Assembly (NCBI GenBank): GCA_025359125.1 | Contig: JANYHI010000061.1 | Span: 62,001 to 126,000, forward strand | Length of the DNA stretch: 64,000 nucleotides | Direction: 5' to 3' | Origin: Cytophagales bacterium | Lineage (GTDB): Bacteria > Bacteroidota > Bacteroidia > Cytophagales > Cyclobacteriaceae | Shown: positions 4,199-31,600 of the stretch, piece by piece | How the letters are laid out: each line of letters starts with the position of its first letter | How positions within the stretch are numbered: position 1 is the stretch's first letter | The notes under the pieces: generated by a model | Databases searched by the model: none | Seen by the model: the letters and a program-made list of their open reading frames with translations, nothing else | What the model was told of the DNA's origin: nothing | Position numbers and translations under genes: made by a program

Positions 4199-5635
4199 AT
4201 GCGTCCAAAAATGGTAGAGACAAGCACTAATTCGCCTTATACAACAATTCTAGAAAAGCAAAGAGATAAAAGCTTATTGCTTCGGCAACAGTCTATCAAG
4301 AGTAGAAAAAGCCAATTAAAGGAGTTGGAGATTTTTCTATTAATAAATCGCCAACGCATTCAAGTAGCAGTTAACAGCGACTTGAAAAAGTCATTTATGG
4401 AAGTTGATCTATCCGAGCTTTATCCTGTATTGGGTGAAATTAGAACTGCAATAGAAAATTTGGATGGGTGGGCTCGATCAAAAAAAATTGATTCGCCCTT
4501 AACCTATTTTGGCTCGCGTGCAGAAATAAAAATTGAACCCAAGGGGGTTTGCTTAATTATTAGTCCGTGGAATTATCCTTTCAACCTTTGTTTTGGGCCA
4601 CTTATTTCATGCATTGCCGCAGGAAATACAGCCATCATAAAACCGTCAGAAATGACGCCCAATACTTCTAAATTAATTTCAGCATTGGCCTCCGAATTTT
4701 TTGAGGAAGCGCAGGTTAAAGTAATTGAAGGCGATTACACGATTTCGAGTGAGTTATTGAAGCTGCATTTCGACCATATTTTTTTTACTGGAAGTTCTAC
4801 GATTGGAAAAGTTGTAATGCGCGCGGCTGCCGAAAATTTAACTTCTGTTACCCTTGAGCTTGGCGGAAAATCTCCAACCATTGTAGATGAAACCGCAAAC
4901 CTTTTAACAAGCGCCAAAAGAATTGTGTTCGGAAAATTCTTAAACAACGGCCAAACATGTGTGGCACCAGATTATATTTTGATACATCGCAATGTTAAAG
5001 ATTCATTTATTGAACACTTGAAAAAAGAAGTGGTAAAAATGTTTGGTGATAACGGAACGATCAATGAGGATTCCAAAAGTTATTCCAGACTAATCAACCA
5101 AAAGCATTTCAATCGAGTTACCCAACTTATTAAAGATTCTGTAGCAGAGGGAGCTGTTATTGAACTGGAAGGAAAATCAAATGAAAAAGTAAACTTTTTA
5201 CATCCTACTGTTTTATCGAACGTATCGCTCAATTCCAGCATAATGGAGGAAGAAATTTTTGGCCCTGTACTGCCTGTTATTACCTATAATACAGAGGAAG
5301 AAGCAATTAATCTGATCAATAGTAAGCCTAAGCCTTTGGCGCTATATGTCTTTAGTGAACGCAAATCTTTTCAGAAAAAAGTTTTGAATCAAACCTCGGC
5401 AGGCACCACCTGCATAAACGATTGTGTCATTCAATTTGCACATCCCAATCTTCCTTTTGGTGGTGTTAATAATAGCGGTATTGGCAAATCGCACGGCTAT
5501 GCCGGGTTTTTAGAGTTTTCTAACCAACGCCCGATATTAAAACAGCTAACTAGGTTTTCAGCTTCCAGTTTCATCTATCCTCCGTTCAAGCCAAAAATGA
5601 AGTTATTAGTAGATATGATGCTAAAGTATTTTTAA
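4199..5635 (+). CDS. Aldehyde dehydrogenase, class 3-like (fatty aldehyde type)
   Basis: A 478-residue NAD(P)-dependent aldehyde dehydrogenase, the usual length for the family. Visible motifs are ISPWNYPFN (121-129), the general-base glutamate in TLELGGKSP (Glu220) and the catalytic cysteine in NNGQTCVAPD (Cys254). The C-terminus carries an extra basic and hydrophobic tail (KMKLLVDMMLKYF) like that of class 3 fatty aldehyde dehydrogenases, which may associate with membrane. It oxidises aldehydes to carboxylic acids; medium- or long-chain aldehydes are likely from the subgroup and from the lipid-related genes nearby, but the substrate is inferred. It stands alone with its own upstream gap. Confidence 0.92.
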   Translation: MRPKMVETSTNSPYTTILEKQRDKSLLLRQQSIKSRKSQLKELEIFLLINRQRIQVAVNSDLKKSFMEVDLSELYPVLGEIRTAIENLDGWARSKKIDSPLTYFGSRAEIKIEPKGVCLIISPWNYPFNLCFGPLISCIAAGNTAIIKPSEMTPNTSKLISALASEFFEEAQVKVIEGDYTISSELLKLHFDHIFFTGSSTIGKVVMRAAAENLTSVTLELGGKSPTIVDETANLLTSAKRIVFGKFLNNGQTCVAPDYILIHRNVKDSFIEHLKKEVVKMFGDNGTINEDSKSYSRLINQKHFNRVTQLIKDSVAEGAVIELEGKSNEKVNFLHPTVLSNVSLNSSIMEEEIFGPVLPVITYNTEEEAINLINSKPKPLALYVFSERKSFQKKVLNQTSAGTTCINDCVIQFAHPNLPFGGVNNSGIGKSHGYAGFLEFSNQRPILKQLTRFSASSFIYPPFKPKMKLLVDMMLKYF

Positions 5636-20182: not shown

Positions 20183-21265
20183 GTGCGTAAAATTATTCAT
20201 GTTGATATGGATGCCTTTTACACCTCGGTAGAACAAAGAGATCGACCTGAATTTAAAGGCAAACCGATTGTGGTGGGTGGCTCACCGGAAGGGCGCGGAG
20301 GAGTAGTTGCAGCAGCCAGTTATGAGGCAAGAAATTTTGGGATTCGCTCCGCTATGTCAAGTAAAAAAGCCTTACAACTTTGCAAGCATCTTATTTTTGT
20401 TCGCCCTAGGTTTGATGTTTACAAACTGGTTTCAAATCAAATTCGTGAAATCTTTTATCGGTATACAGATTTGATTGAACCGCTCTCTTTAGATGAAGCC
20501 TATCTGGATGTAACAGAAGATAAACAACGTATTGGTTCGGCCATTGAAATCGCCACACTTATCCGCCAAGCAATTAAAGATGAGTTGCACCTTACCGCCT
20601 CAGCGGGAGTGTCGATCAATAAATTTGTGGCCAAAATTGCTTCCGATATGAAGAAGCCTGATGGGCTTACTTTTATAGGGCCATCAAAAGTAAAATCGTT
20701 TATGGAAAAATTGCCTGTTGAGAAATTTTTTGGCGTGGGCAAAGTTACAGCCGATAAGATGAAGCGTTTAGGTCTGCATACGGGTGCCGATTTAAAAAAA
20801 TTATCAGAGTCTGAACTTATTAAGCATTTCGGGAAATCAGGAAAATTCTTTTACAAAATTGTTCGAGGCGAAGATGATCGAGAAGTGCAACCACATCGCG
20901 AAACAAAATCGGTTGGCGCGGAAGATACTTTCTCTTACGACCTAACAACGATTGAAGAAATGTATAGCGAACTCGATAAAATTGCTGAAGTTGTAAGTGA
21001 TCGTTTAAAAAGACATTCGCTAAAAGGTAAAACCATTACTCTTAAAATTAAATATCACGATTTTAAATTAGCCACGCGGAGTCAATCCTTTTTAGAAACT
21101 ACAAACGATCAAGATTTTTTGGCCACAACTGCCAAGCAATTACTTTTAGTTGCTGATGTAGAAAGCAAAAAAATCCGATTGCTTGGAATTTCGGTTTCAA
21201 ATTTTGGAACCCCTCCACTAAGATTACATCAAGATGCCGACACCGATCAGTTGAAGTTGTTTTAA
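20183..21265 (+). CDS. dinB: DNA polymerase IV (Y-family translesion polymerase)
   Basis: A 360-residue Y-family polymerase of usual length. The metal-binding carboxylates are visible in HVDMDAFYTSVE (Asp8) and LSLDEAYLDV (Asp104, Glu105). The thumb has the helix-hairpin-helix FFGVGKVTADKMKRLG, and the protein ends in QLKLF, a beta-clamp-binding motif. It copies past DNA lesions with low fidelity. The start is GTG 20183, since the family begins with this MRKIIHVDMDAFY block and no ATG lies nearby. It converges on the TPR gene 13 bases downstream. No LexA-type operator is evident. Confidence 0.96.
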   Translation: MRKIIHVDMDAFYTSVEQRDRPEFKGKPIVVGGSPEGRGGVVAAASYEARNFGIRSAMSSKKALQLCKHLIFVRPRFDVYKLVSNQIREIFYRYTDLIEPLSLDEAYLDVTEDKQRIGSAIEIATLIRQAIKDELHLTASAGVSINKFVAKIASDMKKPDGLTFIGPSKVKSFMEKLPVEKFFGVGKVTADKMKRLGLHTGADLKKLSESELIKHFGKSGKFFYKIVRGEDDREVQPHRETKSVGAEDTFSYDLTTIEEMYSELDKIAEVVSDRLKRHSLKGKTITLKIKYHDFKLATRSQSFLETTNDQDFLATTAKQLLLVADVESKKIRLLGISVSNFGTPPLRLHQDADTDQLKLF

Positions 21266-21278
21266 AAATTAAGATCGC

Positions 21279-23135
21279 TCAGTTAATTATTTTTTCTTCC
21301 ACAAAATCGCCTCTTAAATTTCTATATCGTTTTCTTGCCTCTGCAGCATACACACTTCCTGGATATTTATTTAAAAACTCTCGGTAGAATTCCATCGCTT
21401 TCTCTTTATTCTTCAGTTGATTTTCATAAATATCAGCTTCCAGAAAGTATGCATCATCTGCCAAAATATCTTCCGGAAATTCTTTCAAGATTTTATCTAA
21501 GAGTTGCAATGTTTCTGTAAACTGACCTTGCTTCATGCGAAGATTTGCTTCGAGCCAATACACATCATCTAATAAAGAATTTCCAGAAAAGTCTTTTTTA
21601 ATAATCTCTAGCTTTTTAAATACTTGCTCGGTTTTATTTTGAATTAAATCCAATTCTGCGGAAGCAAATAATTTCATTGCATCAGCAATTGTATCCATGC
21701 TGGTATTCTCTTTGATTTTTATACTAAGATCCATTGCATCATTGGCTATCTCTCGGGTTGTCGCTTGTTTCAAAATATCTAAATGCTCTTGTGCCAATTT
21801 AAAGTTGCCTTTGTAGTAAGATAATTTTGCGTTTCGCAATTTAGCCTCATAGCCAAGCGGTGTTTCGCGCTGAGACTTTTCTACTTGAGAATAAAGTAAA
21901 GTCGCTTCCCAAGGTTCTTCTTTCAACAAGTAAATATCACCTAGTTCCATTTTCGCTTGGTTACGTAGTTGTGACGAAATTTTTGAGTTTGATAAGAGAT
22001 TCGTTATTCCTATCACGGTGGAATCAAGTTGATTTAGATAATATCCTTTTAGTAAAGATTGATTTAAACGCGCCTCAAAAGAATCGTTGTTTTCGGGGTA
22101 TCGGCTACAAAATTTATCATATTCAGCTATAAGATATCGAACTGAATCTTTATTGACTGGGTAACTCTTTTTAACTTTTGCTTCGCGTGTTCGGATAAGC
22201 CCAAGTTGTGCTGGCAAAAAGTTCTCCGTGTTAATAAATTCTTTGGTAACAAATGTAAAGGCTTTATCTGCATTTGTGTAGTCTTTGTTATTAAGTGCGA
22301 TCTGTGCAATTTCTAATGTTTTTGATTGTTCTTTTCTAAAACGTTTGTCATAAGCTCTAGCCTGGATAAATGCACTATAAAAGTTTTTTTGCTGAAGGTT
22401 CGTCCATATTAGCAGGTCTATAAAAACTTCCGACTGTTGATTTTGCTGAACTCGTTGGGTAAGAATTTGTTCGAGGCTTTGTAATTCTTCGGGCTTGGTT
22501 AACAACAGTTGCAAGAGATTTTTGATGTATCCGCTATTGGCTGGTGTTTGCGTAACATAATCTAAGTATTCGCTCACCATCTGTTCTCTTTTGCCTTGCA
22601 GGCGATAAAGATTGGCAAGTTCTAATGAAAATAATGCTGGACTTTTTGTAACAACTCTGGCTTGTTGCAAACTATAAACACTGTAGTCAATTAAGTTTTG
22701 CGAAGCCAAATAATCAGATATAATTTTAGCTTTGTAAACATCCTCCAGTTGAATTTTTATTTGCGACTTAAGGTATTTATCGGCCTTGGCAACATCGCCC
22801 GATCTTAAGTAAATAATACCAAGGTCTAGTCTATAGCTAATGCGGTCATCTCGTCTAATTAATTTTTCAATGTAATCTTCAGCCTGTTTAAATTTTGCGC
22901 CATCTAGTAAAAGATTTAGATAAGTATTGTGAATTGAATTTATGTTTTGAGGATCTTTTGCCAACTCTTGAAAAACCGCAAGTGCTTTTATTTTTTCGCC
23001 TTTGCTTAAATATTCGTTGGCAATTCTGATCTCTTGTTGATTTTGCGAAAACGCATTTAATACACAAATGCAGATGACTATTGCATTAAGTATTAATTTT
23101 TTAAAATCTTTAAATCTATAATTAGTCTTGTTCAT
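21279..23135 (-). CDS. Tetratricopeptide-repeat exported protein
   Basis: A 618-residue protein with a signal-like N-terminus (ends NAFSQ at about residue 31) and multiple TPR-type helical hairpins along its length (for example ANEYLSKGEKIKALAVFQEL, DLGIIYLRSGDVAKADKYL and, near the C-terminus, FYREFLNKYPGSVYAAEAR, the last being of the outer-membrane-assembly/YbgF type). It probably acts as a periplasmic scaffold for protein-protein contacts. It is a single gene on the minus strand; its 5' side is the AT-rich gap proposed as origin. That gap holds no clear TAnnTTTG box, so its promoter is not identified. Confidence 0.88.
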   Translation of the reverse strand: MNKTNYRFKDFKKLILNAIVICICVLNAFSQNQQEIRIANEYLSKGEKIKALAVFQELAKDPQNINSIHNTYLNLLLDGAKFKQAEDYIEKLIRRDDRISYRLDLGIIYLRSGDVAKADKYLKSQIKIQLEDVYKAKIISDYLASQNLIDYSVYSLQQARVVTKSPALFSLELANLYRLQGKREQMVSEYLDYVTQTPANSGYIKNLLQLLLTKPEELQSLEQILTQRVQQNQQSEVFIDLLIWTNLQQKNFYSAFIQARAYDKRFRKEQSKTLEIAQIALNNKDYTNADKAFTFVTKEFINTENFLPAQLGLIRTREAKVKKSYPVNKDSVRYLIAEYDKFCSRYPENNDSFEARLNQSLLKGYYLNQLDSTVIGITNLLSNSKISSQLRNQAKMELGDIYLLKEEPWEATLLYSQVEKSQRETPLGYEAKLRNAKLSYYKGNFKLAQEHLDILKQATTREIANDAMDLSIKIKENTSMDTIADAMKLFASAELDLIQNKTEQVFKKLEIIKKDFSGNSLLDDVYWLEANLRMKQGQFTETLQLLDKILKEFPEDILADDAYFLEADIYENQLKNKEKAMEFYREFLNKYPGSVYAAEARKRYRNLRGDFVEEKIIN

Positions 23136-23382
23136 TTGTTGATAACCATATTTAATCTGAGCTCTGTTGATATTTATCTTTTGATTGTTTATAGTTATCC
23201 ATGTTTTAGATCGATGAATATCAATTTAACTACTTTTTGTGAATTGTTGATGTAGTTATCAACATAGTTTCGTAGTTGAGAGAATGTCTGTTAAGTTAGA
23301 GTTACACACAATCATATACCTGTCGCTTGGTTTCCATTTTAGTTTGTTAATCTCTTATGAGTTGTCAACATCAATTAACAAA
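23136..23382. other. Candidate chromosomal replication origin (oriC): AT-rich gap with DnaA-box-like sequences
   Basis: No gene is seen in these 247 bases. Two copies of TTATCAACA (one mismatch from the DnaA box TTATCCACA) lie in opposite orientation, one on the minus strand at 23137-23145 and one on the plus strand at 23256-23264. Weaker relatives occur at 23165-23173 and 23245-23253 (minus), 23195-23203 and 23362-23370 (plus). The gap is very AT-rich, lies about 4.4 kb from two parS sites and is separated from mnmG (gidA) by two genes. The first box begins one base inside the intergenic region before the TPR start codon. This is inference: no dnaA gene is in the window, and the consensus of this organism is unknown. 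Confidence 0.45.
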
Positions 23383-25011
23383 TTAGAACTTGATTTTGAT
23401 AGGACCAACTTCCCAGTTAGCCCTTATTGGTATTGACGTTTTGCCTTCGAAGTTTCGATGTATAATTACTTTTTCAGGTTCTTTATTCAGGTAATAGTTG
23501 CCTGTATCCCATTTGTTGTTGTTGTTTGCGTCTATGGTAATTCTTATTTTATACTCTTGTGGTTCTAGGTATTTAAAAGTATAAGATTTTATATTTTTAT
23601 TAGAGCTTACTGGTTCATTGTTTCTTCCTAGTAGTTCTATTATGTAATTCTTCTCAATCGTCTGAACTTCAATGGAAAGTGATCCTAGTTCTTGTTCATT
23701 TTTGATTTTAATAATGTGCGTAGTTGCCTTTGTCGAGTCGTCTTCTATCGATACAAATGCTCCTTCTCCAAAGATTATTAATGGAGATATTAGTTTTTTT
23801 TCTTTTGGGTCTTCGTTTTTAAGCTCAAGAAATGTGTTGATCGTTATCTTGTTACTCATAGAGTCTGTTTTGATCTCTGATGACCTTAATGGTTGAAAAG
23901 TAGTCGAATCGATCTGTATGTAAATACTATCTAGGGTTATCTGTTTAAGGGGCTTGTTGGTTGTAGCTTCTAATTTCACCTCTCTGTCCTCGTAATCGTA
24001 TTCGGTTTTGCTGTATGTTATTTTAAATTTCTCTTTGGGCATTTTTGTTCTAGAGAATTTTAAATACACAGTAGTGTCTTTCTGGCTACCAATACTATCT
24101 GTCAGTTGTAAGTCTAATTTTAGAGAATCTTCAATTTCTGTAGTCGATTTGTAAAAAAGCAATTCATCTCTCTTACTCCCGAAAGTCATCGTGAATAGTT
24201 CTTTGTCGCTGGGTTCTACTTTTACAGAATTGACATCTTTATTAATTCTCACCGTAGATAATCTATCGGATCTCCGGATGCTTGTAATTTTTATAGGTCT
24301 TGAGTCAACTCGTATTAATGGAATAGTTACGCTATCTGATTTTCCGATGAGGTTAATTGGTTTTATCAGGTATCCAAACTTTTCTCCCTTGCTCTCTACT
24401 TTCAGATTTTTGTTTTTGTCTTCAAACGCATAAATAAAATATTGTCCAGACTTTAGATTATTAATGCTAAATCTTCCTTGTTTGTTTGCTTTAGTGAAAT
24501 ATTCTGGCTGATGGTTAAATATATTAAAAGTATCAGATGAATAAAGCGCAACGGTAATTTTATCGGGTATCTCTTCTTTAAATATTTCTTCCACTTTTCC
24601 TTGAATACTTAGAGAGTCAATTTCAGGCCCAGTGCTGAATGCCAGCCTTAGATTAAGAGCTGAGTTGCTTTCTGTTACGTCCTGAATTCCGTCCCGAAAT
24701 GAAATGCTATAGGTAGTATTTTCTTTCCACTTTAGTTTAGGCAGAATGGTAATTCTGTTTTTCCTGGCGATGAATTTTACATCTTTTCCTATAGATGGAG
24801 CTATCATAATTTCTTCTGAGGGATCTTTTAACTTCACATACTCATCGAAATCTAATATGATAGTTTTTTCGTTAAAATTTTTTTGGTTGTTTGATGGGTT
24901 TGATATTTTAAGTTCTGGAGCTTTTTTATCCTGCGGTCCGCCATTTGGCGAGGTTTGATTTGCACAACTCAATATTCCAAAAGCTATAAATACACAAATG
25001 AAGAATCTCAT
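23383..25011 (-). CDS. Ig-like-domain lipoprotein
   Basis: A 542-residue lipoprotein: hydrophobic signal then Cys16 in the context GILSCANQTSPNGG. An N-terminal bacterial Ig-like (SbsA/BIG_5-type) domain (about 30-135, with the typical LDFDEYVKLKDP and YSISFRDGIQD segments) is followed by further beta-sandwich regions and a C-terminal carboxypeptidase-like region (about 455-540, with RITIDANNNNKWDTGNY). This arrangement is widespread in Bacteroidota as a conserved Ig-like lipoprotein of unknown role. Its ATG overlaps the stop of the upstream methyltransferase by 4 bases (ATGA), so it is translationally coupled to the mnmG operon. Likely located at the outer membrane. Confidence 0.88.
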   Translation of the reverse strand: MRFFICVFIAFGILSCANQTSPNGGPQDKKAPELKISNPSNNQKNFNEKTIILDFDEYVKLKDPSEEIMIAPSIGKDVKFIARKNRITILPKLKWKENTTYSISFRDGIQDVTESNSALNLRLAFSTGPEIDSLSIQGKVEEIFKEEIPDKITVALYSSDTFNIFNHQPEYFTKANKQGRFSINNLKSGQYFIYAFEDKNKNLKVESKGEKFGYLIKPINLIGKSDSVTIPLIRVDSRPIKITSIRRSDRLSTVRINKDVNSVKVEPSDKELFTMTFGSKRDELLFYKSTTEIEDSLKLDLQLTDSIGSQKDTTVYLKFSRTKMPKEKFKITYSKTEYDYEDREVKLEATTNKPLKQITLDSIYIQIDSTTFQPLRSSEIKTDSMSNKITINTFLELKNEDPKEKKLISPLIIFGEGAFVSIEDDSTKATTHIIKIKNEQELGSLSIEVQTIEKNYIIELLGRNNEPVSSNKNIKSYTFKYLEPQEYKIRITIDANNNNKWDTGNYYLNKEPEKVIIHRNFEGKTSIPIRANWEVGPIKIKF

Positions 25012-25898
25012 TTTTTTATCACATAAATCAAGCTGGAGTAATTCATTTCTTTATTGCCTGCAAGATTTGATTTTAGCCCGTTTATAATTCCTTTAATTCC
25101 ATTTACCATTTTACTATGGGTAGGATTTCTGTAGCCCTCGCTTAAGATAGAGACATAGAACGAATCAAGCTTCATTGGTTTTATTTCTTGCAACTTCAAT
25201 TTATGTTTTATTAATAATTTCTCTATTGTGGTTTTTGAGAAATGCCACAGATGTCGAGGAACATCATAGGCTGCCCAGTGCTCCTTATATTTTTGTGCAT
25301 CAGCAGACTCATAGTTAGGTACAGCTATAAAAATCATACCATCATCTTTCAATAGCTCTTTAATTTTTTGGAGGGAATTTTCCAAATCATGAATATGTTC
25401 GAGTACGTGCCACAGTGTGATTACATCAAATTTCTTTTGAATAATTGAATCAAGTGATTGATGAACTTTTATTTGTAGAAAACTTTCAGCTTTTATTCTC
25501 GCATTTTCCGATGGCTCTACTCCTGTAATTTCCCATTTTCTTTCTTGTAGGAAATTCAGAAAGGCACCTGTACCGCAGCCATAATCAAGTATTTCTCCTT
25601 TTAATTTGTATGATCGAATAAGATTATATTTCCATCGCATCGTTAATATTTGAGCAAGAAAATAGATTCTATCGATTATAGTTTTTCTACCACCACTGTG
25701 GGATATGTATTTTTCTGACAGGTAGTATTTTCCTATTGAATTAGCATCTGGTCTTGGACTTGTAATTAAAAATCCGCAACCCAAACATTTAGTGATTATA
25801 AAATACTCTTGAGAAATGCTTACATCTTTAATTTCGAGGAGGGAATTGAATTTTGTTGATGAGCAAATGGGACAAACGGCAAGTGTTTCTAAATTCAT
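25008..25898 (-). CDS. Class I SAM-dependent methyltransferase with zinc-ribbon N-terminus
   Basis: A 296-residue enzyme. Two Cys pairs (Cys9/Cys12 and Cys38/Cys41) form a probable zinc ribbon at the N-terminus. The SAM-binding motif I is GEILDYGCGTGAFL (about 101-114), followed by the LWHVLEHIHDLENSL region typical of the Methyltransf_23-type family. A glycine/lysine-containing tail follows (SNLAGNKEMNY). The substrate is unknown. It starts 3 bases after the mnmG stop and overlaps the next gene by 4 bases, so it is part of one operon with mnmG and the Ig-like lipoprotein. Confidence 0.9.
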   Translation of the reverse strand: MNLETLAVCPICSSTKFNSLLEIKDVSISQEYFIITKCLGCGFLITSPRPDANSIGKYYLSEKYISHSGGRKTIIDRIYFLAQILTMRWKYNLIRSYKLKGEILDYGCGTGAFLNFLQERKWEITGVEPSENARIKAESFLQIKVHQSLDSIIQKKFDVITLWHVLEHIHDLENSLQKIKELLKDDGMIFIAVPNYESADAQKYKEHWAAYDVPRHLWHFSKTTIEKLLIKHKLKLQEIKPMKLDSFYVSILSEGYRNPTHSKMVNGIKGIINGLKSNLAGNKEMNYSSLIYVIKK

Positions 25899-25901
25899 CT
25901 T

Positions 25902-27764
25902 TTACTTGCCCATGTAAACAGTTAGTACTGAAACATCTGCTGGAGAAACACCACTGATTCGCGAAAGTTGACCAACGGTTTCTGGCTTTATTTTCTTTAA
26001 TTTTTCTCTTGCCTCAGAAGATAATGCTTTTACTCTGTCATAATCAAAGTCAGATCTAATTTTGTAATCTTCTAAGCTCTCAATTTTTTCTGCTAGTTTT
26101 TGTTCTCGCTCGATGTAGCTTTCATACTTAGTAGAGATTTCTACTTGTTGCAAGATCTCTTCGGAGTATTTACTGAAACGGGAGTTGATATCGGGATCAA
26201 TTCTTCTCAGTTCAGCCATACCGATGTGTGGCCTTTTAAGTAAATTTTCTGCAGGTACTTTTTCTGATATTGTTGCTGTGTTTAATTCTGATAGTTCACC
26301 GTTAACAACCGCAGGCTGCACACGTAATTGTTTTAATTCTGTTTTGAGTTTCTGAATTTCATTTTTCTTGTCTAATAATTTCTCTAACCTTTCATCTGTA
26401 GCCAAGCCCAATTTATGACCCATTTCCGTTAATCGTAAATCGGCATTGTCTTGGCGCAATAGAATTCTATACTCGGCTCTTGATGTAAACATTCGATAGG
26501 GTTCTTGTGTGCCTTTGTTTACAAGATCATCGATCAGCACTCCGATGTACGCTTCAGATCTTTTTAATACGAATGGATCTTTTTCATTCACTTTGTTATG
26601 AGCATTTATTCCGGCCATTAACCCTTGGCAAGCAGCCTCTTCATAGCCTGTAGTACCATTGATTTGACCTGCAAAATACAGATTATCAATTAGTTGTGTC
26701 TCTAATGATGTCTTTAGCTGTGTTGGAGGGAAGAAGTCATATTCAATAGCGTAGCCTGGTCTGAACATCTTTGCCTTTTCAAAGCCCGGTATTTTTGTGA
26801 TGGCTGAATATTGAATGTCTTCTGGCAACGAGGTTGAAAACCCGTTCACATATATCTCAACTGTCTTCCAACCTTCTGGTTCTACGAATATTTGATGACG
26901 ATCTCTTTCGGCAAATCGATTTATCTTATCCTCTATAGAGGGGCAGTATCTTGGCCCAATACCTTTTATTCTTCCTTGAAACATGGGTGATCTATCGAAT
27001 CCTTTTTCAAGCTCTTTATGAACGTCTTCGTTGGTATAGGTGATCCAGCAACTAAGTTGTTTTGCTAATGGCTTTGTGTCGGTATAAGAAAATTTGCCTG
27101 GATTCTTATCTCCTTTTTGTTCTTCCATGGCGCTATAGTTTAATGAGCGACCATCTATTCGGGGAGGAGTTCCCGTCTTCATCCTACCAGATTCAAAGCC
27201 AAGTTCTATCAGCTGTTCAGTTATTCCTATAGCAGCCTTCTCGGCTGTTCTACCACCGCCAAAATTCTTTTCTCCTATATGAATTTTTCCATTTAAGAAT
27301 GTTCCGTTTGTAAGCACAACTGCCTTTGCTTTTATTTCGATTCCGAGAGCCGTCTTTATTCCAATTACCCTTTTAGCTTTTACCAGAATTCCGCTTACCA
27401 TTTCTTGCCAGAAATCTACATTCGGCATTGATTCAAGTGCCAACCTCCACTCTTCCGCAAATCTCATCCTGTCATTTTGGGTTCTGGGACTCCACATTGC
27501 TGGCCCTTTCGATAAGTTAAGCATTCTAAACTGAAGCATTGATTTATCTGACATGATTCCGGAGTAACCACCTAAGGCATCTATCTCCCTAACAATTTGC
27601 CCTTTTGCGACACCACCCATTGCGGGGTTGCACGACATCTGGGCAATCGTGTTCATATTCATGGTTACCAAAAGAACTTTTGATCCCATATTGGCCGCTG
27701 CCGCTGCCGCTTCACAACCCGCATGCCCAGCCCCTACTACAACTACATCGTATTCTTGAAACAT
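25902..27764 (-). CDS. mnmG: tRNA uridine-5-carboxymethylaminomethyl modification enzyme MnmG (GidA)
   Basis: A 620-residue FAD protein that, with MnmE, installs the carboxymethylaminomethyl group on the wobble uridine (U34) of several tRNAs. It has the N-terminal dinucleotide-binding motif VVVGAGHAGCEAA, the conserved CNPAMGGVAKGQ and GTQEPYRMFTSRAEYR motifs, and a C-terminal helical domain ending ISRISGVSPADVSVL. Length matches the family. Historically named gidA and often close to the origin, which fits the nearby parS pair. Its start is 13 bases from the nearer parS site, in the gap shared with ybeY. Confidence 0.98.
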   Translation of the reverse strand: MFQEYDVVVVGAGHAGCEAAAAAANMGSKVLLVTMNMNTIAQMSCNPAMGGVAKGQIVREIDALGGYSGIMSDKSMLQFRMLNLSKGPAMWSPRTQNDRMRFAEEWRLALESMPNVDFWQEMVSGILVKAKRVIGIKTALGIEIKAKAVVLTNGTFLNGKIHIGEKNFGGGRTAEKAAIGITEQLIELGFESGRMKTGTPPRIDGRSLNYSAMEEQKGDKNPGKFSYTDTKPLAKQLSCWITYTNEDVHKELEKGFDRSPMFQGRIKGIGPRYCPSIEDKINRFAERDRHQIFVEPEGWKTVEIYVNGFSTSLPEDIQYSAITKIPGFEKAKMFRPGYAIEYDFFPPTQLKTSLETQLIDNLYFAGQINGTTGYEEAACQGLMAGINAHNKVNEKDPFVLKRSEAYIGVLIDDLVNKGTQEPYRMFTSRAEYRILLRQDNADLRLTEMGHKLGLATDERLEKLLDKKNEIQKLKTELKQLRVQPAVVNGELSELNTATISEKVPAENLLKRPHIGMAELRRIDPDINSRFSKYSEEILQQVEISTKYESYIEREQKLAEKIESLEDYKIRSDFDYDRVKALSSEAREKLKKIKPETVGQLSRISGVSPADVSVLTVYMGK

Positions 27765-27776
27765 TTTATTTTTTAG

Positions 27777-27792
27777 TGTTCCACGTGAAACC
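27777..27792. promoter_or_regulatory. ParB-binding site parS, copy 1
   Basis: TGTTCCACGTGAAACC matches the recalled consensus TGTTNCACGTGAAACA at all but the last base. It is palindromic around CACGTG. It lies in the gap between mnmG and ybeY, 12 bases upstream of the mnmG start. Confidence 0.85.
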
Positions 27793-27824
27793 TAGCGAGA
27801 CCTTACCCCAGATAATATCTCAAA

Positions 27825-27840
27825 CGTTCCACGTGAAACT
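27825..27840. promoter_or_regulatory. ParB-binding site parS, copy 2
   Basis: CGTTCCACGTGAAACT keeps the core GTTCCACGTGAAAC and differs from the recalled consensus at both ends. It starts 48 bases after copy 1 and in the same orientation. Its last 2 bases lie in the ybeY stop codon. Two sites this close strongly favour a genuine ParB partition site over chance. Confidence 0.82.
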
Positions 27841-28261
27841 ATTTACGCAAAGATAGGCAAGCTTCTTCTTTTTTGCGCATTTGGCCTTTATCTGATGCCT
27901 TCTTGTCTTTATACCCCAATAAATGCAAAACCCCATGTATAATAACCCTGTCAAGTTCATTCTTAAATTCTGATTTGAATTTTGATGCATTCTCTTTTAC
28001 CCGATCAATGCTAATATAGATCTCCCCTTCCAACACGGCTTTATTTTCAGAATTATCGAAAGTGATAATATCAGTAAGTGTATTGTGATTTAGAAAGCCT
28101 TGGTTAAGGTTCAGCAAAAATGAATCTGTACAAAATATGTAGTTGATTTCTTTAAGCTGACGTTTTTCTTTTTTGATCATCGACTTTATCCAAGAAGATG
28201 TTTTTCTAGGGTGATCAAGGCTAAAAGAGATCTCTTCGCTAAAAAAGTTGATAGAAGCCAC
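27839..28261 (-). CDS. ybeY: Endoribonuclease YbeY (16S rRNA 3'-end maturation)
   Basis: A 140-residue metal-dependent endoribonuclease with the usual zinc motif HGVLHLLGYKD (His109, His113). The third ligand, a His in Escherichia coli (HGTLHLQGYDH type), is replaced by Asp119 here; I recall this variant as common in Bacteroidota. YbeY acts in 16S rRNA processing, ribosome quality control and sRNA-related regulation. It sits 3 bases after the ATP-binding protein gene and is the last gene before the parS pair. Its stop overlaps the second parS copy by 2 bases. Confidence 0.95.
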   Translation of the reverse strand: MASINFFSEEISFSLDHPRKTSSWIKSMIKKEKRQLKEINYIFCTDSFLLNLNQGFLNHNTLTDIITFDNSENKAVLEGEIYISIDRVKENASKFKSEFKNELDRVIIHGVLHLLGYKDKKASDKGQMRKKEEACLSLRK

Positions 28262-28681: not shown

Positions 28682-31600
28682 TTATTCTTTTGTTCCCATT
28701 CTTTTAAAGTAATCACTCACCTCCTTTTTGTAATAGGGAAATAACTTGGGAGGAACGGTTTTTAACAATTCTACTTCTTTTTCTTTTAATCTTAAGTATT
28801 CTTCAAAAGCCTGTGGCATCTGTTGACTGTACTCTTTTGCGGTTTCTCCTTTTCGCTCTTCTTGCTGATTTTGTTCGCGCATAGACTTCTCTGCTTCTAA
28901 CAACCGAGTTATTATTTCATTTTGTCTGCGAATGGTTTGCTCTGTAATCTGCTTGTTAACCAAATCTATTTCAGTTTGTTCCATTTTTCCGGGTAAATCT
29001 CCGCCTGGTATTTTTCCTCCTTCTTTTTTAAGTTTTTCCTGCATTTCTTGAAGAGCTCTTCTAATACGTTCTTGCTCAGCAGCCATTCTTGCAAATTCTT
29101 CTGATAGTTGTCTACCTGACTTACCACCATTTTTAATATCCTGTATTTGTTGATTCAACTGTTGCTGAAGCTTACCCAAATTTGGCTGATTAGCTTTTCC
29201 TTTCTTCTTTCCTTTGCCAGCCCCGGGTTTTGCATTGGCCATCATATCCATCATCATATTAAAATGATCATTCAGCATTAGTGCAAGATTATTAATACTT
29301 GTCATTGAAAATTGCATCTCAGAACTTGCATTTGATTTCTTTCTTTCCTTCACATTCAGGCTAGCTTTGTCTAAATGATCATTTAAATCCCCTACTTCCT
29401 TTGTTACAACAGATCCAAGAAACGGATCTTTCTTAGATAGAGATAACAAGCTGTCTTCCAACACTTTAGCGTCATCTTTAACTTTTAATTGGTTTTGAGA
29501 TAATTGTATATACCGTGGATCAGTCTGTTGTACTTTATTAAAATCCTTCATTAGACCTTCCTGATCATACGATAATTTGATAAGCCCATGAAGAATTTGT
29601 CTAAGACTTTCGAGATTAGCCATATCCATTTCCATCTCCATGGAGTTTTGCATTCCCTCTAATTTTTTTTGCATTTGACTCATCTGCTGAACAGCCTTCT
29701 TTTGTTGCTCAGAAGATTTTTTAGGCTTGCCTTGCTTCAACTGTTCTTTACTTTGCTCCTGCGACTCTTCTAATTCTTTCATTTGTTGTTCGCTTGGGGT
29801 GTCTTGCGACTCGTTCATTTCTTCCCCCATTTTTTGTAGCTCATCAATCGTCTTCTTAAATTCTTCAGATTCCTTTTTTAGTTCTTCTTGTTTTTTGGCT
29901 AATTCTTCAGCAGTTGGTTTTTCATTTTCTCTTTCAGATTTTGAATCATTTGCATCGGCTTTTTCTTTATCTCTTTTCTGATTATTCTTTTCAGTAGACT
30001 TTGAATCTTTCATTTCTGATTTCTCGGGCTTTTCGCCAGCAAGTTCTTGGGTTTTCTCTAGTAGCTCTTCTTGCTTTTCTTTTTGTTGTTTAATTTCGTC
30101 AATCGCTTGTTCAAGTTTATAATCATATTGAAGTTGCTTGAAAAGCTCTAGCGTTCGCTCCAATTCTTTTTCCATATTGATTTCTTTGCGATCCATCTTA
30201 TCCAACAATTTTTGTAATTGAGAAGGGTCGGCATTTTCTTTCAACAGTTTTTCTAATTCCTGAAAAAGTTTTTTTGTTTCTTCATCAAGCAACTCATTCA
30301 TTATCTTTTGAATCTGTTCTGATTTTTCTTTGATGCGTTCGGTCTCTTCTGAAAATGATTCTTTCTTTTGTTCGAGCAAACTATTTTCTTTTTGAAGATT
30401 TTTTACGGCCTCGTCTAACTTTTGCTTTTGCTGAATTAAGTCTTCCAACATTTTTTTGTCTTGCCAATCAAGGCTTTGCTTCCCTCTTAATTTTTCTTGG
30501 GCCTCGTCAATAGATTGTTTTAATTCTTTTGCCTTTTGAAGGCTCTGATCAATTTTGCTTTCAGCATTTTGTTGCGACTTTGAAATTTCGGTTTTTAATT
30601 CCTCTTCGCTCGGCAAAGCAAAAATGTATTCCGATGAACGGGTGGACTTACGTCCATTGACACCATCATTATCCCAAACTTGTAAGTGATAAGTAAGCTT
30701 GTCACCGGGTTGTAACGAGAGGGAATCAACAGACCAACGATAAAAGAAATTTTGTTGGTTGCGTGCTGAACCTAATGGAATATCGATGCTTTTGGTTGCT
30801 TGAACATTGCTTCTTTTTACTATTTGATAGTTCAACTTCAACGCAGTCACTCCATAATCATCCGTTAAAGATCCGCCTAGCAAAATATTTTTGAAGAGTA
30901 TAGAATCGCGCAAATTGTCAACCACAATTTGTGGATGCTGGTCTTTTATTACATCAATTGCATAGGTAATCTGATCTTTGTTTTTACTTTTTTCGTTTTC
31001 CAACAGAATAGAGTAATGATCGGGGTCATTAATATTCTTGCTGAAATTAAAAAGTTGATCATCAACCAAAGGCATCTCATTTTTTCCATCTACAGATGAA
31101 AACGAAATGGAAGCTTTTGTTGAATTGGTGGTGCCAATCTTCCAAGTTACTTTCGTTCCTTCAAGAATTTCTAGGTTCCCGGCATTGCTTAAATGCTCTG
31201 CTTTCTTTCCGATATAAGACGGATATAAAAGATCGACATTAATTTTGGTAAGCTCTGGCCTATTGATGAGTTGAATTTTATATACAGAAGAATAAAATCC
31301 GGATGCCTCGAATTGCAGATCTACATTTTGTTGGAGTTTCTCAAATATGTATGAAAATTTTCCGCGATCCAGAGATTCCATTTTCCATCTCTGGGCACCC
31401 GATACAATGTAGGCAGCATTTGGAATTGCAGCTCCACTTAATGAAAGTTGAAGCGAAAAATCTTCATTGAAAAAAGCTGTTAAGTCCTGATTTTCTACAT
31501 TGAATTTGAATGGTGCCTGGGGAGAAAACTCTTGATTGAATTGAACGATGCGTTGAGTGCTAAGCGTAAAGATATGTTTATTAAAGATGAATAAAATCAA

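Follow-up and report, generated by a model that had tools for sequence, protein, structure and literature searches.

A conserved intergenic gap between a TPR-protein gene and an Ig-like protein gene as the predicted chromosomal origin of replication of a Cytophagales bacterium

The AT-rich intergenic gap at 23136-23382 of the window analysed here (64,000 nucleotides, bases 62001-126000 of contig C87) is very probably the chromosomal origin of replication (oriC) of its Cytophagales bacterium, whose genome assembly consists of 87 contigs (3.68 Mb). Because DnaA boxes, a high A+T content, a neighbouring pair of parS sites, conserved gene order and a switch in GC skew come together at this gap, we read it as oriC. 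The same reading had been proposed in a first-pass annotation of the window, and it is now supported by the clustering of boxes at the same gap across many families of Cytophagales and by the GC skew of the complete chromosome of a congener (G024). The features of the locus are as follows.

21279-23135, minus strand: gene for a TPR-repeat protein, conserved left neighbour; the gap adjoins its start
23136-23382, no strand: predicted oriC, AT-rich intergenic gap of 247 bp with DnaA boxes, conserved in position
23137-23145, minus strand: DnaA box, exact TTATCAACA, 1 base upstream of the TPR start codon, with a counterpart at the same edge in many genus members
23165-23173, minus strand: DnaA-box-like word ATATCAACA, 1 mismatch
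23169-23228, no strand: candidate DNA-unwinding element, the 60-bp stretch with the lowest stability in the gap
23256-23264, plus strand: DnaA box, exact TTATCAACA
23362-23370, plus strand: DnaA-box-like word TTGTCAACA, 1 mismatch; an equivalent plus-strand box stands at the same edge in the majority of the 22 genus loci that were aligned
23383-25011, minus strand: gene for an Ig-like (Big_5)/DUF2141 protein, conserved right neighbour; the gap adjoins its end
25008-25898, minus strand: methyltransferase gene, part of the conserved neighbourhood
25902-27764, minus strand: mnmG (gidA), TIGR00136 match above the cut-off
27778-27791, no strand: parS site GTTCCACGTGAAAC, exact
27826-27839, no strand: second parS site GTTCCACGTGAAAC, exact

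Results

DnaA boxes and base composition of the gap

We defined a DnaA box as TTATCCACA or TTATCAACA, a set that was picked with the finding already known, and scored sliding windows of 300 bp with 3 for each exact box and 1 for each one-mismatch box. The gap had been described as holding two exact boxes in opposite orientation and several weaker relatives; both exact boxes were confirmed at their positions, and the relatives amount to two words with one mismatch and four more, elsewhere in the gap, with two mismatches. These two boxes are the only exact copies of TTATCAACA in the 64-kb window. Their number is ordinary (1.29 expected, and at least 2 in 39 of 100 shuffles), but their closeness is not, since two exact boxes arose in only 2 of 20,000 gaps simulated with a first-order Markov model and none of the 20,000 matched the score of 8. 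The proposed check for DnaA-box clustering also singled out the gap, which is the densest box window of the 136-kb contig C87 (score 8 vs 4 for the runner-up).

The whole genome contains 87 exact copies of TTATCAACA and 25 of TTATCCACA. When the site lists were judged by eye, only two pairs of exact boxes lay less than 800 bp apart, one in the gap and one on contig C49. The C49 pair was rejected as an alternative origin because it sits within an open reading frame, which we take to be murE-like from a motif in its translation.

The gap had further been called AT-rich, and its A+T content of 71% indeed lies at the 99th percentile of the contig (mean 61%); on the same contig its least stable 60 bp rank at the 99.8th percentile for low computed stability. 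Two open frames of at least 20 residues touch the gap (39 and 50 residues), and no Rfam family scored above threshold in 21000-28000.

GC skew places the switch at or near the gap

Because the genome is fragmented into 87 contigs, it can show a local skew trough only. On C87, the cumulative skew forms a broad trough at 56-96 kb that includes the gap (at 85 kb) and reaches its lowest value 11 kb from it, so that skew alone does not single out the gap on this contig. The skew of the plus strand at fourfold-degenerate sites rises across the gap from left to right for genes of both strands (from -0.107 to 0.017 and from 0.036 to 0.139), and the intergenic skew of C87 shows no such rise (-0.023, -0.055).

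Chromosome-wide information came from the complete congeneric chromosome G024, in which the Ig-like gene has coordinates identical to those in CP058703.1 (Cyclobacteriaceae bacterium SSA6). A GC-skew minimum elsewhere in the genome had been named as evidence that would speak against an origin here; in G024 the skew flips at the locus and flips back near the antipode. The cumulative minimum lies at 2,545,373 and the gap at 2,574,680, which are 29 kb or 0.7% of the chromosome apart, and the maximum lies at 460,040, 17 kb from the antipode of the gap (443,328). The sign of the skew fits an origin at the gap in all 20 of the sampled 20-kb stretches, and among 786 kb scanned the best 300-bp box window of G024 is again the gap (7 vs 5 for the next). 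In G028 the skew agrees weakly, with 15 of 20 stretches of the expected sign (8 of 10 negative on the left, 7 of 10 positive on the right), and in G033 the corresponding count is 13 of 20 (7 of 11 negative on the left, 6 of 9 positive on the right).

The dnaA locus compared with the gap

The dnaA gene of the source genome lies on a different contig from the gap, and that of G024 is 1.36 Mb away. The best 300-bp box score is higher for the gap than for the dnaA locus in 8 of 10 genomes, including the source genome (8 vs 2) and G024 (7 vs 1). Because the dnaA region of the source genome lacks boxes, we rejected it as the origin. The dnaA locus outscores the gap in the two remaining genomes, both of the genus (G001, 4 vs 2; G005, 6 vs 4), in which a group of box-like words lies about 0.8 kb upstream of dnaA (L182 3719-3760 for G001 and L180 3710-3829 for G005). 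These groups may reflect self-regulation of dnaA or a second, competing site.

Gene neighbourhood and parS sites

The order mnmG, methyltransferase gene, Ig-like gene, gap, TPR gene is widely conserved, and the TIGR00136 match bears out the earlier assignment of mnmG two genes away from the gap. The two parS sites that had been placed 4.4 kb from the gap are likewise present, and they are the sole pair in the genome: a genome-wide search for GTTCCACGTGAAAC with at most one mismatch returned two sites, both exact and both in the stretch between ybeY and mnmG (27765-27839). The distance between parS and the gap is similar in G024 (about 4.4 kb), G028 (about 4.5 kb) and G033 (about 3.5 kb). The word GTTYCACGTGRAAC occurs in 31 of 39 genomes, the source genome included, with exactly two sites in 22 of those 31. 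Of 20 named genomes from across the phylum, 16 have the parS motif within the stretch taken around mnmG. Unlike this motif, the box cluster at the TPR/Ig-like gap was seen in Cytophagales only in this sample. A ParB-family gene was located at a distance from the parS pair in the four genomes searched for it, for example on contig C80 of the source genome and at base 31,261 of G024.

Conservation within the genus

The Ig-like gene was matched in 36 of 39 genomes, from which we took 30 loci, 22 of the genus (own locus included) and 8 of other families; G003, G004 and G013, which belong to the genus and gave no Ig-like match, are outside these counts. In 21 of the 22 genus loci the gap is bounded by the TPR gene on one side and the Ig-like gene on the other; the remaining locus is truncated at a contig end. 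Every one of the 22 loci has one or more boxes that are exact or differ at a single base, and an exact box is present in 15 and absent in 7. The genus gaps measure about 165-280 bp, hold 0 to 3 exact boxes and, when aligned, have little in common beyond a minus-strand box at the TPR edge and a plus-strand box at the Ig-like edge. In many members these two inward-facing boxes stand at the very edges of the flanking genes.

Conservation in other families

Five of the 8 loci from other families have the TPR gene within a flank of 1.5 kb, and the gaps of these five contain 16, 13, 13, 4 and 0 box-like sites. One further locus (L030) has a group of boxes next to the Ig-like gene without a TPR gene.

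We also examined named loci, which are the best 80 of at least 301 relatives; named genomes of the same genus carry the labels Cyclobacteriaceae or Cytophagales. The sets overlap in that L039, L040 and L042 are contigs of G009, G011 and G020, and L041 is G024. The TPR gene stands beside the Ig-like gene in 23 of the 80, and in all 23 the gap is the densest box stretch, narrowly so in L072 (12 vs 11) and L067 (18 vs 14). As many as 13 exact boxes occur in such a gap. The score is at most 8 in 55 of the 57 named loci that have no adjacent TPR match. In L068 (34) and L049 (11) the cluster lies directly beyond the Ig-like gene, and the contigs stop 1.8 and 0.6 kb past that gene. A comparable division was seen around mnmG in 20 named genomes, which scored 12-25 with both the Ig-like and TPR genes (n = 5) and 1-9 without them (n = 15).

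A survey of TPR loci across the order

A profile of the TPR protein was run over 145 genomes of the order and gave a match of some strength in 137. A cluster (score of at least 6) lies upstream of the TPR gene in 22 of the 30 best TPR loci, the source genome included, and is missing in 8; among 20 regions that were hand-picked, mainly from long contigs, it is present in 14 and missing in 6. All 11 hand-picked regions that show both the Ig-like and TPR genes have a cluster, and the six misses contain a TPR gene without mnmG, the methyltransferase gene or the Ig-like gene in the stretch. L294 and L300 show the TPR gene alone, yet have a cluster.

The cluster was frequent in several families, with 6 of 6, 7 of 7 and 5 of 6 among the best loci of f5, f11 and f15, and 3 of 3, 2 of 2 and 3 of 4 among the hand-picked regions of f9, f21 and f18. 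Family f16 was weak (2 of 4 in both surveys together), and no cluster was found in the examined members of f2, f4 and f13. In the family to which the source genome belongs, the score is at least 6 in 4 of 5 best loci and in both hand-picked regions, and G002 scores 4. G141 and G158 are counted in both surveys, and G002, G028 and G034 are in the 30-locus Ig-like set as well as among the 30 best TPR loci. The richest homologous gap belongs to another family and holds 19 exact DnaA boxes in 500 bp (L301 of G082, about 4493-4993). One genome of the order has the complete arrangement of mnmG, methyltransferase gene, Ig-like gene, gap and TPR gene with a box-like cluster of score 8 and no exact box.

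A wider rule, under which oriC would accompany the TPR gene wherever it lies, was rejected. In the test of this rule 22 genomes were searched and the best locus of 17 was examined, leaving aside two partial matches in G037 and five weak secondary matches. The TPR gene is beside the Ig-like gene in 3 of the 17 loci (G027, score 0; G029 and G030, where the pair is recognised by coordinates, score 6 each). Among the other 14, two of which have almost no upstream sequence, only G038 is clustered (18), and the rest score 0-2.

Two side observations concern the exceptions. G027 (L029) keeps the TPR/Ig-like pair and has two parS sites in its genome, and its gap of 351 bp contains no box-like word; the origin may have moved, or the box sequence may be different there. 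Nine genomes of the same family as the source genome, from genera g17, g18, g20 and g21, gave weak TPR-profile matches only (G076, G089, G127, G137, G166, G172, G180, G187 and G190; E-values from 5e-5 to 8e-8), and in these the TPR gene seems, from the profile matches, to have been lost or replaced.

Discussion

Weighing the origin against other explanations

Several observations count against an origin at the gap. They include the higher dnaA scores of G001 and G005, the seven genus loci with no exact box, the broad trough and the intergenic skew on C87, the skew counts of G028 and G033, the boxless gap of G027 and the TPR loci of the order that lack a cluster. The box set of the gap is also thin (two exact and two near), and the genes over about 10 kb to the right point towards it, while genes are usually expected to be co-oriented with the replication fork. 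An origin elsewhere in the neighbourhood, within some tens of kilobases, with the boxes of the gap being auxiliary, is improbable. Such a site, for example at parS beside mnmG or nearer to the skew minimum, would fit the minima that lie 11 kb (C87) and 29 kb (G024) from the gap, and the predictions that put oriC of Flavobacteriaceae at or adjacent to mnmG in the available parts of PMC11278836 and PMC12843772. Against it stand the lack of a comparable box cluster elsewhere in the contig or in 233 kb around the gap of G024 and the cluster of up to 19 exact boxes at the homologous gap in another family.

The position of one box a single base from the TPR start codon would also suit a DnaA-controlled promoter region of the TPR gene that is not an origin, an explanation to which we give very little weight. 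The absence of a recognisable promoter, noted in the first-pass annotation, held up: one sigma-70-like site was found in 23000-23500 vs 2.9 expected, and TAnnTTTG, the -7 consensus, is absent from the gap and 60 bp on either side. The skew switch at the locus in G024 and the spread of boxes through the entire gap in several relatives also speak against a promoter, as do the six TPR regions that lack both the usual neighbours and the cluster, but not the clustered L294 and L300. Least probable of all is that box-like words have come together by chance because the DNA is AT-rich; two exact words per 64 kb are not unusual, but the score of the gap was never reached in simulation and the same gap is the top box stretch in every named locus that has the TPR gene beside the Ig-like gene.

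Under the preferred reading of the gap as oriC, DnaA, supplied by its remote gene, would occupy the boxes, and the AT-rich stretch between the left (minus) and right (plus) boxes would melt, probably at about 23169-23228. Helicase would then be loaded and two forks would depart in opposite directions, and ParB bound to the two parS sites beside mnmG would mark and segregate the copied origins. The DnaA filament, the melting, the helicase loading, the bidirectional forks and the action of ParB are carried over from established knowledge of DnaA-dependent origins; observed in the sequences themselves are the boxes, the AT-richness, the unique parS pair and its place, the conserved arrangement and the skew switch in G024.

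Because the genus gap contains few boxes, it may initiate with a smaller DnaA complex or a shifted box preference. That the genus oriC is a stripped-down form, produced when an ancestral Cytophagales origin was reduced across the clade and accompanied by one of these two changes, is a tentative proposal that we consider possible but rather doubtful. The homologous origins span 0 to 19 exact boxes, so that origin reduction becomes testable.

Relation to known origins

The origins of E. coli and B. subtilis combine DnaA boxes with an AT-rich stretch, and mnmG (gidA) is their classical neighbour. The gap differs from them in that it is not beside dnaA, has few exact boxes and is accompanied by parS sites between mnmG and ybeY. 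The separation from dnaA, which had been regarded as a distinctive feature, proved true but is called common in Bacteroidetes in the accessible portion of PMC4755523. According to the same portion, oriC of the first chromosome of Prevotella intermedia is a box cluster at the skew transition and away from dnaA, and in these respects resembles the gap.

For Mariniflexile litorale and Algorimicrobium (Flavobacteriaceae), the available sections of PMC11278836 and PMC12843772 report an oriC predicted with Ori-Finder 2022 at mnmG, in agreement with GC skew, and a dnaA position in Mariniflexile that is inconsistent with the skew; the neighbourhood of mnmG is thus shared with the gap. The legend of figure 3 in PMC11278836 places ter at mnmG and oriC at leuB/dnaA, the reverse of what the text of that paper says in the sections at hand. 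In our own data, no TPR match was found in 20 kb around mnmG in Flavobacteriaceae (L212-L214) or other Flavobacteriales (L211, L225), whose best 500-bp box scores are 3, 4, 9, 5 and 3. The exact place of the Flavobacteriaceae origin may therefore differ. Within the order to which the source genome belongs, Cytophaga hutchinsonii has functional oriC plasmids (Xu et al. 2012, as cited in the available part of PMC5891637).

Bacteroidetes origins far from dnaA and the use of mnmG as an origin marker in Flavobacteriaceae have thus been published, as far as the accessible parts of these sources go, and the TPR/Ig-like gap of Cytophagales was not found described as an origin among the matches listed in a literature search. 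The present analysis locates the predicted origin in a group in which dnaA is distant (1.36 Mb in G024). The TPR/Ig-like gap, which lies downstream of mnmG and close to the parS pair, offers a landmark by which draft genomes can be oriented and growth rates estimated from coverage.

One of the named loci deserves separate mention. L082 lies on a contig labelled Saccharospirillaceae, which we take to be a gammaproteobacterial name, and encodes an Ig-like protein of the Bacteroidota type; the genome is probably a mislabelled or mixed MAG.
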